NCBI GenBank assembly: GCA_016839905.1 | Contig: JAEOTJ010000239.1 | Span: forward strand, 1 to 6,216 | Length of the DNA stretch: 6,216 nt | DNA from: Promethearchaeota archaeon | GTDB taxonomy: Archaea; Asgardarchaeota; Lokiarchaeia; Sigynarchaeales; SOKP01 | Direction of reading: 5' to 3' | Shown here: positions 1,396-6,216 of the stretch, piece after piece | Layout: every line of letters starts with the position of its first letter | Position numbering within the stretch: position 1 is the first letter of the stretch | Translations under genes and position numbers: made by a program | Notes under the pieces: model-generated | The model's input: only the letters and a program-made list of their open reading frames with translations | What the model was told of the DNA's origin: nothing | Databases searched by the model: none

Positions 1396-1920
1396 ATGAC
1401 TGAATATGATTATACATATAGAATTTGCTTATTTGCAAGAGAAAATGTAGGGATAAAAACCTTAGTAGGAAAAGAAATGCAACCCGCTTTCCTAAACGAT
1501 ACGTCATTGACTATTAGTATGACTCTTTATGATAAAATTATTAATTCTAAAGTAGGCAAAATAAAAGTACAATTTTTTAATTTATCCAATAAAGAACAGT
1601 TTAAATTTCTGTGGCATCAGTTTAGCAAAGACTCTGATGGTATAATGGTGATGTATGATATTAAAAACGTGAAATCTTTAAAAATTATCTCTGAAATCTG
1701 TGAGCCCATAAAAAAAAGTTTAGATCGTAATATTCCACTTTTTTTAGCAGGAAATAAATTAGATTTAGAAACGAATCGGGAAGTAACAAAAGAAGAAGTA
1801 GAAATTTTAAAAAAGAAATACAATATCTCATCATCAATGGAGATTTCAGCAAAAACAGGAGAAAATAGCGATGAAATGTTTCTGAAATTAACTGATATGA
1901 TGTATAAGAGATATCACTAA
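1396..1920 (+). CDS. Atypical Ras/Rab-type small GTPase (A), degenerate P-loop
   Basis: 174 aa from ATG 1396; an upstream in-frame GTG at 1351 would add 15 residues (numbering below uses that longer form). ATG was preferred because its N-terminus matches the length of GTPase C and the preceding bases look like promoter. Small GTPase fold by motif order. The P-loop is AxxxxGIKT (residues 29-37) where the family has GxxxxGK(S/T), so both the first Gly and the invariant Lys position are changed. The DxxG motif reads NLSN (77-80). YDI (102-104) follows the usual strand. G4 is intact as NKLD (135-138) and G5 as SAK (166-168). There is no C-terminal Cys for prenylation; it ends MMYKRYH. Guanine recognition looks preserved, but Mg2+/phosphate binding and hydrolysis are probably lost. 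It follows broken small-protein copy A and precedes GTPase C by 49 bases. It may be a pseudo-GTPase or a gene drifting towards loss. Confidence 0.85.
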   Translation: MTEYDYTYRICLFARENVGIKTLVGKEMQPAFLNDTSLTISMTLYDKIINSKVGKIKVQFFNLSNKEQFKFLWHQFSKDSDGIMVMYDIKNVKSLKIISEICEPIKKSLDRNIPLFLAGNKLDLETNREVTKEEVEILKKKYNISSSMEISAKTGENSDEMFLKLTDMMYKRYH

Positions 1921-1969
1921 TATTTGAAAATTAAACGTATAAGAATATAGTTTTAGAGAAGAAAAGAAA

Positions 1970-2497
1970 ATGTATGATGAAAAACCTGATTTAATTATTA
2001 AAGTTTGTATGTTTGCTGATAATAAAGTAGGTAAAAAATTATTAACAAAAAAATTTCTTAAATCTACTTTTAAAGAAAGTGTAGGAGTTAATTTCTATAT
2101 TAAAGATGTTGAGATCGACGGAAAACTTATAAGATGGCAATTATGGGATTGGAGCTTAGAAGAAAAAAAGATTGCTCCATATTATCTTGACGGAACTCTT
2201 GGAGTATTATTAATCTATGATATTACTAATGTTGAAACTTTAAGTTCATTAACTGAATGGATTAAACTGATAAGAAGGTATACAAAAGAAGGTACTCCAA
2301 TTTTGTTAGTGGGAAATAAATTAGATTTAGAAGAGAATCGAGACGTATCAAAAGATGAAGTAGAGAAATTAAAAAAAACATACAACATCTCTTCATCGAT
2401 GGAGATTTCAACAAAAACAGGAGAAAATCTTGAAGAAATGTTCCTGAAATTAACTGAAATGATGTACATACAATGGAAAAAATCTCTCAATCAATAA
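1970..2497 (+). CDS. Atypical Ras/Rab-type small GTPase (C)
   Basis: 175 aa, ATG start, normal length for a Ras-superfamily domain. Motifs in order: P-loop A16-DNKV-GKK (family GxxxxGK(S/T): first Gly replaced by Ala, Ser/Thr by Lys, P-loop Lys22 kept); switch I region ESVGVNFY with Ser37 where Thr is usual; G3 as D60-WSL instead of DTAG, with Gly and the following Gln replaced; LIYDITN (81-87); G4 NKLD (116-119); G5 STK (147-149). The best preserved Ras/Rab-like sequence of the three (EIDGKLIRWQLWD, EWIKLIRR). No CaaX-type Cys at the C-terminus. Residues 115-166 match GTPase A at 42 of 52 positions by hand count, while the N-terminal halves are far more different. Role unknown; in Asgard archaea such proteins are presumed switches in membrane or cytoskeletal processes, but the catalytic changes argue for a non-hydrolysing binder. 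Confidence 0.87.
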   Translation: MYDEKPDLIIKVCMFADNKVGKKLLTKKFLKSTFKESVGVNFYIKDVEIDGKLIRWQLWDWSLEEKKIAPYYLDGTLGVLLIYDITNVETLSSLTEWIKLIRRYTKEGTPILLVGNKLDLEENRDVSKDEVEKLKKTYNISSSMEISTKTGENLEEMFLKLTEMMYIQWKKSLNQ

Positions 2498-2563
2498 ATA
2501 AATCAGGATTAATGAAAAACTCTAACTAACAAAATTAATACTAAATTCTTCCCATTGAAAGTG

Positions 2564-2580
2564 ATAATATATAATAAATA
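2564..2580 (+). promoter_or_regulatory. Candidate archaeal TATA box
   Basis: ATAATATATAATAAATA, preceded by a purine-rich GAAAGTG that could act as BRE. It lies about 42-58 bases before the ATG at 2622, a workable spacing for a short leader. In such AT-rich DNA chance matches are frequent. Confidence 0.25.
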
Positions 2581-2621
2581 CTATATAGATGTATTTAATA
2601 ATTAATAATTCCATGTAAACC

Positions 2622-2993
2622 ATGAAAATGATGGAGAAAAAATGTGAGAAATGTTCTTATTATCGTAAATTATTGGGTACTGAATATTGTTGACTTGATA
2701 TTCAGCCTAGATTCTGGGAAGAAAGAAGAAAAAAGTTTGAAAAGATGTGTAATCGATATCTTTCAAAAAAAGCTTTATTTGAAGAACAGATGAAATACAT
2801 AAGAAACCAACGTGAGAAAGAAATAAAATTAGAGATATAGGACGATGAAGGAGAGGAGGATGAGTTTATGAGAGAATATTGTGCACCATCTGAGATTTAT
2901 AAAATAAAACAATATATAAAAAAAATTATCGGTAAGAGGAGTGAATTTTTAGATAAATATCCTATTCTAAATCCCTCTCCTCCATCAAAATAA
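2622..2993 (+). pseudogene. Small Cys-rich protein frame with in-frame TGA and TAG
   Basis: Starting at ATG 2622 the frame reads 123 codons to TAA 2991-2993, interrupted by TGA at 2691-2693 (codon 24) and TAG at 2838-2840 (codon 73). Coding character persists across both stops. Before TGA: CEKCSYYRKLLGTEYC, a CxxC plus a further Cys typical of short zinc-binding knuckles. After it: a charged helical segment (RFWEERRKKFEKMCNRYL) with another Cys, then KYIRNQREKEIKLEI. After TAG: acidic DDEGEEDEF and REYC, ending in PILNPSPPSK. The four Cys (codons 8, 11, 23 and in KMCNRY) could form one zinc site. Most likely a pseudogene by two point mutations. UGA as selenocysteine or UAG as pyrrolysine is conceivable but unsupported: the residue after a zinc-site Cys is not a typical redox position, and a third stop type (TAA) interrupts a gene nearby. 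If expressed as written, only a 23-residue peptide and perhaps a 41-residue piece from ATG 2868 would be made. Confidence 0.6.
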
Positions 2994-3024
2994 AAACCTT
3001 AATATAAGGTAAGATATTCAATAG

Positions 3025-3210
3025 AACAGACTTGACATTAGAGTAGAGCTTAAAAGTCAAAAATATTCACAAGCAATAGTGAGTACTCATTCACAAAAAA
3101 TTGAAGAACTTGAAGAGGCAATTGAAGAATTAGAACCGAAGGAAAAAAAGTTAAGAGATTTCTTAGAAGAAGAATCAGAGAAGTCGAAAACATTTGACTT
3201 CTTTTCATAA
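3025..3210 (+). pseudogene. Short coiled-coil frame, probable gene fragment
   Basis: An open frame follows TAG 3022-3024 and ends at TAA 3208-3210. The only plausible start is GTG 3079, giving 43 aa. The sequence is strongly helical and charged (QKIEELEEAIEELEPKEKK, LRDFLEEESEKSK), reading as a coiled coil with heptad-like Leu/Ile spacing. No start with a clear ribosome site is visible. It ends one base before the ATG of the next gene. It looks like the tail of a longer coiled-coil protein whose 5' part is missing; a genuine micro-protein is the alternative. Function not recognised. Confidence 0.4.
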
Positions 3211-3211
3211 A

Positions 3212-3427
3212 ATGTTAAGGATTCCTCAATATAAGGATCTCACTTTAGAAGAAATTAAAAAGTTAGATAAAATTTTATCAAAGGTAAAAATCGAAGTTAG
3301 AAAAAGAGGAAATTATGCCTATTTTTATGAAATGGAAGCGTATTATGATAAAGATGTAAAAGAAAAAAGAGCAAAAGTTATTGGAAATTTAGAAAGAATT
3401 AAATTAGAAGAATATGAAGCAAAATAA
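3212..3427 (+). CDS. Copy B of small duplicated protein, C-terminus shifted out of frame
   Basis: 71 aa from ATG 3212 (a TTG at 3194 would add six). Reads MLRIPQYKDLTLEEIKK, then a helix (LDKILSKVKIEVRKR), an aromatic strand (NYAYFYEMEAYYDKD) and KRAKVIGNLERIKLEEYEAK. The frame stops at TAA 3425-3427, just after an AAAA run at 3421-3424. Removing one A restores a frame through MSKEELIKNLEKY to TAA 3483-3485, exactly matching in length the tail reconstructed for copy A. The ancestral protein was therefore about 90 aa and this copy is truncated by one base. Homology to the N-terminal hairpin of IS4/IS1634-type transposases is a weak impression only; otherwise a conserved small protein of unknown function. 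It sits about 110 bases before GTPase B, the same order as copy A and GTPase A, so the pair was duplicated together. Confidence 0.65.
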   Translation: MLRIPQYKDLTLEEIKKLDKILSKVKIEVRKRGNYAYFYEMEAYYDKDVKEKRAKVIGNLERIKLEEYEAK

Positions 3428-3502
3428 AAATAAATTAAACCTGATGAGTAAAGAAGAATTAATCAAAAATTTAGAAAAATATTAAAGAGATTGAGAAGAA
3501 GG

Positions 3503-3566
3503 ATTAAATCATTAATATAGTTAAAAATAAATAGGTGTGTTTGTATTGTTATCAAAAAAGATAAAA
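3503..3566 (+). promoter_or_regulatory. Second copy of the conserved 64-bp block, probable promoter of GTPase B
   Basis: Gap-free match to 1317-1380 (57/64). The changes are single substitutions scattered along the block; the A/T core TTAAAAATAAATA and the GTGTGTTTGTATTG stretch are unchanged. Within the stretch that could be read as codons from GTG 3537, no third codon position differs between the two copies, which is not the pattern of protein-level constraint and favours a DNA- or RNA-level role. Confidence 0.45.
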
Positions 3567-4142
3567 TCAAGATGTAAGATTATAAGTGATCATTGGGACT
3601 ACACATTTAAAATTTGTATATTTGCAGGTAAAAATATAGGTAAAAAATCCCTTTCTAAAAGATTTACTAAGCCTATTTTTGATGATTATGAATTTGATGA
3701 ATCATCAAGAGGACTGCATTTCTTCTTGAAGACAATGAAAATTGATGATAAAATTGCAAAATTACAGTATTGGTTGTTACTAGGTGATACTGAAATATTT
3801 AAACGGTTTCATCCAGACAGAAATGTAAATCAACAGTACATTAAAGGTTCTAATGGTATTATAAAAATGTATGATATTACTAATAAAGAATCTTTAAATC
3901 ATTTATCTGAATGGAGTCAATTGATAAAGAATAAGTTAGATTATAAGCCTCCTATTTTATTAGTAGGTAATAAATTGGATTTAGAAAAGAATCGAGAAGT
4001 ATCAAAAGAAGAAGTAGAGAAATTAAAAAAGCAATTTGGAATTTCTTCTTCAATGGAAATCTCTTTGAAAACAGGAGAAAATGTATTTAATATGTCCAAA
4101 AAAATAGCTGAAATGATGTATAAGAGATATCAACATTTTTAA
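3537..4142 (+). CDS. Atypical Ras/Rab-type small GTPase (B) with G3 insertion
   Basis: 201 aa if started at GTG 3537. No ATG exists near the expected start: the codon aligned with GTPase A's ATG 1396 is ATA (3582-3584), so either GTG/TTG upstream or a non-standard codon is used, or the start has been lost. Motifs: P-loop A30-GKNI-GKKS (first Gly to Ala, Ser/Thr to Lys, Lys36 kept); switch I ESSRGLHFF with Ser for Thr; G3 reads WLLLGD (79-84), so the Mg2+-contacting Asp is lost and one residue is added; between G3 and the next strand there is an extra segment of about six residues (HPDRNVNQQY); KMYDITN (110-116); G4 NKLD (145-148); G5 SLK (177-179). Ends MMYKRYQHF without a lipidation Cys. The C-terminal third is nearly the same as in A and C. 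Likely binds guanine nucleotide weakly or without Mg2+-dependent hydrolysis (inference). Confidence 0.82.
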   Translation: MFVLLSKKIKSRCKIISDHWDYTFKICIFAGKNIGKKSLSKRFTKPIFDDYEFDESSRGLHFFLKTMKIDDKIAKLQYWLLLGDTEIFKRFHPDRNVNQQYIKGSNGIIKMYDITNKESLNHLSEWSQLIKNKLDYKPPILLVGNKLDLEKNREVSKEEVEKLKKQFGISSSMEISLKTGENVFNMSKKIAEMMYKRYQHF

Positions 4143-4622: not shown

Positions 4623-5157
4623 ATGTTAAGTATTAAAAAAAAAAAAAAAAATATATAAATATGGTCTATTAGCATGTTTTATAATTACAATTATTTTATT
4701 TTCTGGAATAGCTCCCCTAGTAGATTGGGGAGATATTAAAGATAAACCAGAACCTGTTTGGTTTGATCCAAGTTTAGCAGATTATCTTTACGAAGATAAT
4801 GTAGATAATACAAGCTATAGCTTTAATGCTTATAATGAGAGTTATATTATTTGCAAGATTCAAAATACAGATTTTACAAGCTTTACGTTCAATAATACAG
4901 TTTATAATGTGAGCTATGGGATAAATGTAATTCCTATTGATTTTAGGACTCTAAATGCCTCATATTCTATCAATATTAGTCAAGAAGATGTTAATAATGA
5001 TGTATTTGATTGGATTATTGTAGAACCTCTTTATATAAAATCTGGAACTATCAATGTAAACCTAACAAATACAACCGATATTTCTTTTTATGCAGGAAGT
5101 ATGGTTTCGATATTAATTGATTCGGATCTCCTTCTATTTGCTCTACAAAATAGTTGA
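4623..5157 (+). CDS. Secreted, N-glycosylation-sequon-rich protein, frame interrupted at a poly-A run
   Basis: From ATG 4623 the frame reads MLSI, then lysines from a 17-A run, and stops at TAA 4656-4658. With one A fewer, the same start runs into an open frame to TGA 5155-5157, giving about 177 aa: basic N-terminus (MLSIKKKKKIYKYG), hydrophobic segment (LLACFIITIILFSGIA) and a polar body. That is a convincing signal peptide or N-terminal anchor, so the join is probably the true gene. As written, only the body from GTG 4909 (82 aa) is an ORF with a start codon. The body has eight N-x-S/T sequons within about 90 residues, four of the form N-x-S-Y (NTSY, NESY, NVSY, NASY), and few charged residues, as in a heavily glycosylated cell-surface protein. 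The last about 13 residues lie on DNA that resembles an antisense Nudix fragment, so the natural C-terminus is probably missing. No family recognised. Confidence 0.6.
4635..4651 (+). repeat. 17-A homopolymer inside the signal-peptide coding region
   Basis: The A-run falls just after codon 4 of the secreted protein. Sixteen A joins the start to the signal peptide and body; seventeen, as written, puts TAA soon after. A tract of this length is prone to polymerase slippage, transcriptional slippage and sequencing miscounts. Confidence 0.8.
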
Positions 5158-5209
5158 TCAAAACATAATGATATTTAATTTTTCCATTATCATCATACAT
5201 TATTTTATT
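5120..5209 (-). pseudogene. Antisense fragment resembling a Nudix hydrolase
   Basis: Reading the minus strand from about 5209 to 5120 gives about 30 residues, including DDNGKIKYHYVLINY followed by FVEQIEGDP. This closely resembles the segment D-x-x-G-[KR]-I-[KR]-Y-H-Y-V-[LI]-[IV]-[DN]-Y found C-terminal to the Nudix box in ADP-ribose pyrophosphatase-like Nudix hydrolases. The Nudix box itself is absent: the DNA where it would lie is occupied by the phosphatase on the plus strand. There is thus only a scrap between two other truncated genes. The open frame on this strand is longer (5051-5332), but outside this segment it is antisense to the neighbouring genes. Match made from memory of the family, not a search. 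Confidence 0.5.
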
Positions 5210-5578
5210 GATAATAAAATAATACAATTTATTATAAATTGTTCGGAATTCGATTATCGGAAAAACGTCCAAAATGAATTTCACTATTTTCACATAAATA
5301 TACCTGATTTTGGAACTCCAACAGATTCTCAATTAGAAAAATTCTTCGAGATTACAAGTAAGTGTGGAGCAAATAGAGATCCAATTGTTGTACATTGTGT
5401 AGCAGGTTGTGGAAGAACAGGTATAATGATCGTAGCATGGGCTGCTTTTAATGGTTATATTCCAAATGGATTGGATCCTGTCAAATGGATTCGAAAACTT
5501 AGACCTTGTTCCTTAGAAACAAAGGAACAAATGGAATTCGCACAAAAAATGGCTAAAAGGTATCGAAAACGTCATTAA
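5168..5578 (+). CDS. Dual-specificity/tyrosine phosphatase domain, N-terminally truncated
   Basis: 136 aa from ATG 5168; a TTG at 5117 would add 17 residues. The signature loop HCVAGCGRTG is at residues 76-85 with nucleophile Cys77 and Arg83, and the general-acid loop IPDFGTPT has Asp47. After it come the usual helix (MIVAWAAFNGY) and the C-terminal RPCSLETKEQMEF, a normal end for CDC14/PTP-like dual-specificity phosphatases. It would remove phosphate from Tyr/Ser/Thr or another phospho-ester through a Cys-phosphate intermediate. Recognisable homology starts only at about residue 15 (DNKIIQFIINCSEF). The first strand of the fold, usually ending in an AG-S/P turn, is missing, and residues 1-14 are encoded over the antisense Nudix scrap. 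So the catalytic core is complete but the N-terminus is probably lost or replaced, and solubility and activity are doubtful. It lies 10 bases after the secreted-protein stop. Confidence 0.8.
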   Translation: MIFNFSIIIIHYFIDNKIIQFIINCSEFDYRKNVQNEFHYFHINIPDFGTPTDSQLEKFFEITSKCGANRDPIVVHCVAGCGRTGIMIVAWAAFNGYIPNGLDPVKWIRKLRPCSLETKEQMEFAQKMAKRYRKRH

Positions 5579-5656: not shown

Positions 5657-6216
5657 ATGCTTATGCAAAAATCAGACTACATTTATATGATAACTGATAA
5701 TATAATGGTATATCAGATTAATCTACCCACCGATTTTCGCGGAAATCAATTACATGAGCATCTTAATAGCTACGATGAAAAATATCTTAGTATAATTGCG
5801 GGATTCGATAAAAATTTCTTAGAACACTTTTTAATAATATCTAAAGGAAGAAATCAGGAAGACATTGCTGAAATACTTAGAAAAATGGAAAAAATTTCTC
5901 ATATGATTGGACCAACAGGAAATTTAAGTTATCTCACTCCTAATCAGATCCAATATATCCTCACTAAATTAGGTTCACTCAATGTAAACGAAATAAAAGA
6001 GGAAAATATTAGCCAAATTGCTGATGAACAAATAGAAAAAGAATTTGGAACCACATACGGCGCATCTTCCGCATTAGAACAACAACTTGCTAGTGCAGCA
6101 TTTTATTTACAATCAATTGGATATAATATTCAAGAGATACAGGAGAAATTCAATGAAGTAAGACAAGATCCTTCCAAATTGGATAACTTATTTACCTTAC
6201 CACCTAAAGAAATTAT
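5657..6216 (+). CDS. Unrecognised helical protein, 5' part only
   Basis: Open from ATG 5657 (preceded directly by an in-frame TAG at 5654-5656; a second ATG at 5663 is equally possible) to the window end, at least 186 codons without a stop. The protein is soluble-looking, rich in Gln, Asn, Glu and Ile, and mostly helical: LHEHLNSYDEKYLSIIAGF near residues 30-50, ISKGRNQEDIAEILRKMEKI, a Pro-containing linker (TPNQIQYILTKLG), and an Ala/Gln-rich helix (SSALEQQLASAAFYLQSIG) near residues 140-160. No Cys motifs, no membrane segment and no nucleotide-binding motif are visible. Third-position C and overall G+C are visibly higher than in the GTPase cluster, and the frame has no interruptions. I do not recognise the family. 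Confidence 0.8.
   Translation, partial: MLMQKSDYIYMITDNIMVYQINLPTDFRGNQLHEHLNSYDEKYLSIIAGFDKNFLEHFLIISKGRNQEDIAEILRKMEKISHMIGPTGNLSYLTPNQIQYILTKLGSLNVNEIKEENISQIADEQIEKEFGTTYGASSALEQQLASAAFYLQSIGYNIQEIQEKFNEVRQDPSKLDNLFTLPPKEI

Follow-up and report, generated by a model that had tools for sequence, protein, structure and literature searches.

Do three neighbouring genes on an archaeal contig encode GTPases that still switch, or proteins that have kept the GTPase fold for another use? The stretch analysed here (the window) comprises 6216 bases of contig JAEOTJ010000239.1 (assembly GCA_016839905.1, Promethearchaeota archaeon) with 25.7% G+C content, and contains genes for three small GTPase-like proteins, called A, C and B in their order along the forward strand. 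An earlier note on this DNA had read the same altered P-loop in all three and proposed an inherited subfamily in which an extra lysine may replace the charge of Mg2+. Our analysis leads us to favour, with modest confidence, the reading that A, B and C are Lokiarchaeal Rab-like pseudoGTPases that would hold guanine nucleotide without the normal Mg2+ site or hydrolysis and act as fixed scaffolds whose partner face and tails vary. The genes and their motifs are as follows, with residue positions in Ras numbering.

1396-1920, + strand: GTPase-like protein A, an open reading frame (ORF) with an ATG start, assigned to the family by trees; an in-frame GTG at 1351 is an alternative start that gives 15 residues more
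1435-1458, + strand: P-loop of A, ARENVGIK, with Ala10, Ile16 and Lys17 (sequence, alignment)
1753-1764, + strand: G4 motif NKLD of A (sequence)
1970-2497, + strand: GTPase-like protein C, an ORF matching PF00071 (E 8.8e-32)
2015-2038, + strand: P-loop of C, ADNKVGKK, with Ala10, Lys16 and Lys17 (sequence, alignment)
2147-2161, + strand: degenerate G3 of C, DWSLE for DTAGQ, with Asp57 kept and Gly60 and Gln61 lost (alignment)
2315-2326, + strand: G4 motif NKLD of C (sequence)
3537-4142, + strand: GTPase-like protein B, an ORF with a GTG start, matching PF00071 (E 2.4e-26)
3624-3647, + strand: P-loop of B, AGKNIGKK, with Ala10, Lys16 and Lys17 (sequence, alignment)
3969-3980, + strand: G4 motif NKLD of B (sequence)

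All three proteins belong to the Ras superfamily by profile, scoring far above the cut-off of PF00071 (Pfam Ras; E 5.9e-26 for A, scored on the longer frame), and their reading frames are intact. The nearest solved relatives by sequence are Rabs, namely Rab12 for C (E 2.3e-29), Ypt6 for B and Sec4 for A. The AlphaFold2 model of C had a mean pLDDT (predicted local distance difference test) of 89.6, and its top Foldseek match was Rab8a (E 7.4e-18, template modelling score about 0.8). The C-terminal prenylation cysteine or cysteines typical of Rabs are missing, as A ends in YKRYH, C in KKSLNQ and B in KRYQHF.

The P-loops were aligned in register with canonical GDSxVGKT, and none of the three has the G1 motif GxxxxGK[ST], reading AxxxxGKK or AxxxxGIK instead. 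The altered P-loop reported earlier, with Ala10 and Lys17, is thus present in A, B and C. The "extra" lysine holds for B and C, which have both Lys16 and Lys17, and fails for A, where Ile16 replaces the Walker lysine. The general Walker A pattern, [AG]xxxxGK[ST], permits Ala10, so that position 17 alone is truly odd. The G3 motif DxxGQ is likewise lost in all three (FNLSNK in A, WDWSLE in C, WLLLGD in B), and Asp57 is kept only in C. By contrast, the G4 [NT]KxD and G5 motifs are present, with NKLD and EIS(A/T/L)K in each protein, and both NKLD and the stretch SMEIS.KTGEN are intact. A one-residue slip of the loop, in which Lys17-Thr18 acts as Lys16-Thr17 (hinted at by GIKT in A and GGKT in the relative P0125), was set aside because the alignments are gap-free around the loop and the Glu17 members would be left with no lysine; in A alone it is conceivable.

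A search with C yielded 65 proteins including the window's own three, and position 17 in the 62 outside matches was Lys (20), Arg (13), Glu (10), Thr (10), a gap (five) or another residue (four). A profile built from 26 hand-picked matches of this search, rich in Lys or Glu at position 17, matched 1702 proteins at E 1e-15 or better, and the family counts draw on the best 120 of these 1702. When all listed proteins of both searches were combined and the window's three entered once, the resulting 149 rows had Lys in 86, Glu in 24, Arg in 14, Thr in 12, Ser in 1 and another residue or a gap in 12. As the profile could be biased, a further search used the C-terminal half of C, which is blind to the P-loop, as the query and yielded 40 proteins; with the three window proteins and three lacking the N-terminal half set apart, 34 were readable, with Lys in 16, Glu in 10, Thr in 4, and Arg, Asn, Asp and His in one each. 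Because this query recovered Lys or Glu at position 17 in 26 of 34 proteins, the trait is not a search artefact, and the homologues outside the contig do not uniformly carry GxxxxGK[ST]. The source labels of the matches, which are unverified, include Lokiarchaeota, Odinarchaeota, Thorarchaeota, Hodarchaeota and Hermodarchaeota.

The phylogenetic position of A, B and C was assessed on two trees. For a quick tree of 181 rows, P0061-P0064 (N-terminal half missing or cut short) and P0141 were dropped from the 149 rows, 37 locus proteins were added, and the P-loop and G3 columns were left out; five rows of this alignment (L010, L033, L038, L039 and L040) have no P-loop letters, and in a forced-length alignment seven locus rows were empty or nearly empty of motif letters. 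A, B and C fell inside a 128-row group with a support of 93, which takes in 110 of the 112 rows that have Lys or Glu at position 17 and no Asp57. The family discussed below has 122 rows; among the forks of this tree with 120-135 rows, it is the smallest that contains A, B and C. A more careful tree of 71 hand-picked rows, also with the motif columns removed, separated 42 rows, namely P0052, P0060 and 40 from the 122-row family, from the rest by a branch with a support of 100/98, the bootstrap being not fully settled. All three window proteins lie in this one Lokiarchaeal group, which bears out the earlier proposal of an inherited subfamily trait. The nearest kin of B are P0027, P0029 and P0016 and those of C are P0085, P0003 and P0002; because these differ, B and C represent distinct lineages of greater age, neither being a recent copy of the other. 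A is on a long branch with no firm place inside the family.

Some proteins with a charged position 17 stand apart from the family. Rows with Lys or Glu outside it are P0052, P0065 (DTAGQ intact), L045 and L052. The latter two (L045 1516-2064 and L052 1519-2070) carry Glu17, have lost Asp57 and form a lineage beside canonical GTPases; since they group with canonical proteins (99/94), the charged residue arose more than once. A separate Lokiarchaeal Arg17 group (GKRN; P0035, P0039-P0045, P0047-P0050 and L037) has DxxGE intact, so that its 12 proteins other than L037 resemble the family in the charge at 17 but keep Asp57 and Gly60. Conversely, P0011 is a family member with a canonical P-loop and DxxGE, representing either the ancestral type or a reversal.

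The contacts that single residues of a G domain make with the beta-phosphate, the guanine base, Mg2+, the gamma-phosphate and the catalytic water are textbook knowledge. In the 122-row family, the phosphate-loop residues Gly15 (118/122) and Lys16 (116/122) are kept, as are Asn116 (120/122), Lys117 (121/122), Asp119 (121/122) and Ser145 (122/122) on the guanine side. Position 17 is Lys in 85 rows, Glu in 25 and Thr in 4. Asp57 is found in 3/122 rows, being replaced by Ile (68), Leu (22), Thr (10) or Val (9); Gly60 remains in 3/122 and Gln61 in 1/122. Most of the residues for Mg2+, the gamma-phosphate and the catalytic water are thus lost, with Thr35 (80/122) as the exception. These losses also make the earlier expectation that normal hydrolysis has been lost a likely one. 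According to the accessible part of one source, G1-G3 are the phosphate and Mg2+ regions and G4-G5 the base regions (PMC4316618), and the accessible part of another reports that many substitutions at G10, G15, S17 and D57 of KRAS inhibit all six tested interactions (PMC10866706).

Lys and Glu together make up 20.7% of all residues in the family rows versus 110 of the 121 letters at position 17, so that the position is constrained and has not simply drifted, with a preference for a long charged residue. We suggest that the aliphatic part of residue 17 may pack against the aliphatic residue at position 57, replacing the empty Mg2+ site, with the charge of residue 17 facing outward.

The distribution of conservation along the protein is inverted. 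The proteins were split at the YDIT strand into an N-terminal switch half and a C-terminal guanine half, and pairs whose mean identity reached 0.85 were excluded. Across the 7368 pairs of the family, which share members, the switch half averaged an identity of 0.362 and the guanine half one of 0.605, and the N-terminal half was the more alike in only 53 pairs. The 112 rows grouped by motif alone gave the same picture (0.366 versus 0.599, 6203 pairs). In 31 canonical rows from the same searches, by contrast, the switch half was the more conserved (0.439 versus 0.399, 448 pairs), with the N-terminal half more alike in 297 of the 448 pairs; 25 "other" rows and the 13 Arg17 rows stand on neither side of this comparison.

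The ratio of nonsynonymous to synonymous differences per site (pN/pS) was higher in the N-terminal half than in the C-terminal half in 28/28 pairs of eight genes. Mean pS was nearly equal in the two halves (0.60 and 0.58, respectively, in the 25 pairs not both from the window), and the contrast is therefore mainly protein-level selection and not segment exchange, with weaker or different constraint on the switches and stronger purifying selection on the guanine half. Recombination was rejected as the main cause of the variable half on the same grounds. Within the window the C-terminal half had a lower pS (0.37-0.46 versus 0.50-0.64), so that some local gene conversion is possible there. No positive selection on the switches was demonstrated, synonymous sites being near saturation.

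Since the guanine-recognition part has been kept and most of the Mg2+-binding and GTP-splitting part lost, the family proteins probably act as docking platforms at all times instead of switching on and off. We infer from this pattern the following mechanism. The side of the site that faces Mg2+ and the gamma-phosphate has been taken apart: Lys or Glu replaces Ser/Thr17, Asp57 has mostly given way to Ile, Leu, Val or Thr, and Gly60 and Gln61 are lost. With the beta-phosphate loop (Gly15, Lys16) and guanine side (Asn116, Lys117, Asp119, Ser145) under strong constraint, a guanine nucleotide, probably guanosine diphosphate (GDP) and perhaps guanosine triphosphate (GTP), would be taken up once and held without the standard Mg2+ site. 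Mg2+-independent binding is possible, and in A, where Lys16 is also lost, nucleotide binding may be weak or absent. There would be no hydrolysis and no cycling, and the protein would serve as a fixed Rab-fold platform whose switch face, freed from catalytic constraint, could have diversified for different partners.

Differing C-terminal tails (membrane anchor, polybasic, zinc ribbon or helical) would set the location of each protein. By simple ad hoc rules, the 122 rows include 14 with a membrane tail (hydrophobic stretch), 17 with a shared helical tail, 10 polybasic, five zinc ribbon and five other long tails; in 71 the tail is short or absent, B and C among them, and A has no C-terminal extension. 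The helical tail in the structure model of P0083 consists of four helices. The family member at L007 5745-6779 has a C-terminal hydrophobic stretch, and in P0088 the C-terminal extension is the beginning of another such domain (GCKNVGKKTF), which is truncated.

Of the other explanations, we regard as tentative a receptor-like Rab-fold module, in which the constant guanine half would hold a guanine ligand, be it GDP, GTP or conceivably an alarmone (for example guanosine tetraphosphate, ppGpp), without Mg2+ and the former switch half would form a diversified recognition surface with differing localisation tails. If true, this would be a Rab-like family carrying information in surface diversity and not in nucleotide state. 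HD_4 is a home of alarmone hydrolases, and an HD_4 protein (L006 5418-5960, E 8.5e-12) lies 13 bases upstream of a family pseudoGTPase; inspection of four further member loci by eye showed no HD_4 neighbour.

Equally tentative is a pure scaffold with no nucleotide bound, a class i pseudoGTPase like pG1 of p190RhoGAP, CENP-M or the fungal dynein light intermediate chain. Several phosphate-side motifs are gone, Lys16 is lost in A, and the nearest structural match of the ligand-free model is a nucleotide-free Rab, all of which would suit an empty pocket; the near-invariance of Asn116, Lys117, Asp119, Ser145 and Lys16, whose known role is nucleotide contact, argues against it.

The mechanism of the earlier note, in which Lys17 sits in the place of Mg2+ and neutralises the phosphates for Mg2+-independent guanine nucleotide binding, is somewhat less probable still. 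It is consistent with the predominance of Lys17 and with the joint loss of the Mg2+-holding groups at 17 and 57 while the guanine motifs stay. However, acidic residues should then be barred from position 17, yet Glu is the second commonest state, with at least 15 exchanges between Lys and Glu on the quick tree, which renders the idea doubtful. Compensation of Glu17 by basic residues elsewhere was considered and rejected: Glu17 rows have no clear basic partner in switch II, where positions 62 and 63 are in fact more acidic in them, and although these rows are more often basic at positions 26, 50, 105 and 155, kinship was left uncorrected in the comparisons. Moreover, A has Lys17 without Lys16 and hence no net extra lysine. 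The charge-replacement role assigned to Lys17 is therefore not upheld as a rule for the family.

Ras S17N acts as a dominant negative. Natural counterparts altered at the same position, GDP-bound or empty, could in principle sequester the exchange factors of normal Lokiarchaeal GTPases, of which many seem to be present (Ser or Thr17 in 49 of 54 readable P-loops of genome G005, described below). We consider this improbable, because the face that exchange factors grip is the most variable part of the family, which makes a common exchange factor unlikely. A working GTPase with unconventional chemistry, for example with Glu17 as an Mg2+ ligand and Thr35 kept, would fit the frequency of Thr35 and the canonical P0011, but has very little probability given the near-total loss of Asp57, Gly60 and Gln61 and the fact that Thr or Ser35 is rarer in Glu17 rows (14/25) than in Lys17 rows (62/85). 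Local decay or sequencing error in the contig, to which the broken frames nearby (the small ORF copy at about 1074-1290 and a surface-protein gene at about 4623-5157) might point, is ruled out by homologues outside it, as 107 family rows beyond the window's three (rows being 90% clusters, some of them close kin) carry Lys or Glu17 and all three frames are intact.

The family looks minor per genome and broad in metagenomes. Eleven genomes had 18-63 profile matches each at E 1e-8. G005 is a Lokiarchaeal metagenome-assembled genome, for which 55 of the 56 profile matches were fetched (C38 was left out) and 56 domain pieces aligned. Position 17 in the 54 readable pieces was Thr (42), Ser (7), Lys (2), Arg (2) or Ala (1), and both Lys17 P-loops belong to family members (P0111 and P0115). 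A profile match was found in 15 of 83 genomes of the class at E 1e-50 and in 6 of 227 genomes of the phylum at E 1e-54; such strict cut-offs miss weaker family members, and some of the matches are not true members, as those from G003 and G004 carry Ser, Thr or His at position 17. Many family proteins are located on short contigs. A viral origin was also considered and rejected, as 46 stretches were matched, yet none in viral_contigs encodes a relative.

A and B are preceded by copies of a recently duplicated segment, recognised from the direct repeats D2, D3 and D5 (85%, 83% and 77% identity):

1074-1403, + strand: upstream copy of the duplicated segment, with a small ORF interrupted by an in-frame stop and the leader of A
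3245-3589, + strand: downstream copy of the duplicated segment, with the small ORF open (3194-3427) and the leader of B

No Pfam or NCBIfam model matched the product of the small ORF. Compared in 50-base steps, the DNA upstream of A and that upstream of B share 74-90% identity from 1084 to 1415, and identity drops to 38-62% in the switch region (1466-1636).

Elsewhere in the window, 319-969 encodes a protein with a zinc-ribbon-like stretch and no Pfam family above the cut-off, 5117-5578 a dual-specificity/tyrosine phosphatase-like protein near the pseudoGTPases (PF22785, E 7.5e-15), and 5657-6214 is an open-ended frame whose similarity to Csm6 is very weak (E 0.0075, well short of the cut-off). 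What is left of a gene for a secreted or surface protein, spread over more than one frame, lies at 4623-5157, and a piece of it (4909-5154) has 50% identity over 70 residues to an open 439-residue relative in L006. This relative (7151-8470) lies downstream of a family GTPase and shows a weak TSP3 repeat below the cut-off. As the surface-protein relative is located near a family GTPase in both, the window and L006 share a neighbourhood. No other recurrent neighbours were noticed when the ORFs of L001, L002, L005, L006 and L007 were compared by eye, with no systematic test; beside this reading, a Pfam scan covered ten proteins, six of them neighbours. Against the PADLOC defence models, A, B, C, the window phosphatase, L007 and P0083 matched no family at E 0.01.

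With Rab8, Rab12, Rab11 and Sec4, A, B and C have in common the fold, the overall sequence and the NKxD and SAK-like motifs, but Rabs have GK[ST], DxxGQ and a C-terminal cysteine, and A, B and C have none of them. The canonical relatives tested also show the reverse of the family's variable switch half and constant guanine half. PseudoGTPases, as defined and classified in the part of the source available (PMC5593906), retain the GTPase fold but lack at least one G motif, and some septins are counted among them in the available part of another (PMC10731463). As far as these sources go, A, B and C are like the eukaryotic pseudoGTPases (Rnd, RGK, pG1 and pG2 of p190RhoGAP, CENP-M and some septins) in having altered G1 and G3 and a fold kept by profile and prediction. 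They differ in that the family is archaeal, has Lys or Glu at 17, a mostly aliphatic residue at 57 and nearly invariant G4 and G5, and has numerous members whose tails vary. Canonical Asgard Rab-like GTPases such as Thor-Rab belong to the same superfamily and wider archaeal group and have many copies per genome; Thor-Rab gave phosphate levels similar to human Rab11B in the accessible part of the report (PMC10933270), whose main text, so far as accessible, contains neither "pseudo" nor "degenerate" in its treatment of Asgard small GTPases. The common GTPases of G005 carry GKT/S and mostly DxxGQ/E, unlike the family. A literature search, with subscription papers and preprints outside its scope, found no work bringing Asgard archaea, GTPases and pseudoGTPases together, and novelty is unproven.

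In Asgard archaea, small GTPases are regarded as precursors of the membrane traffic of eukaryotes, and how many there are readily passes for the number of switches. This family, with more than a hundred known members that are probably not ordinary switches, implies that the count mixes switches with pseudoenzymes, and suggests that pseudoGTPases arose within the archaea too. The inverted conservation amounts to a natural experiment separating the parts of the G domain needed for the guanine base from those needed for Mg2+ and catalysis.

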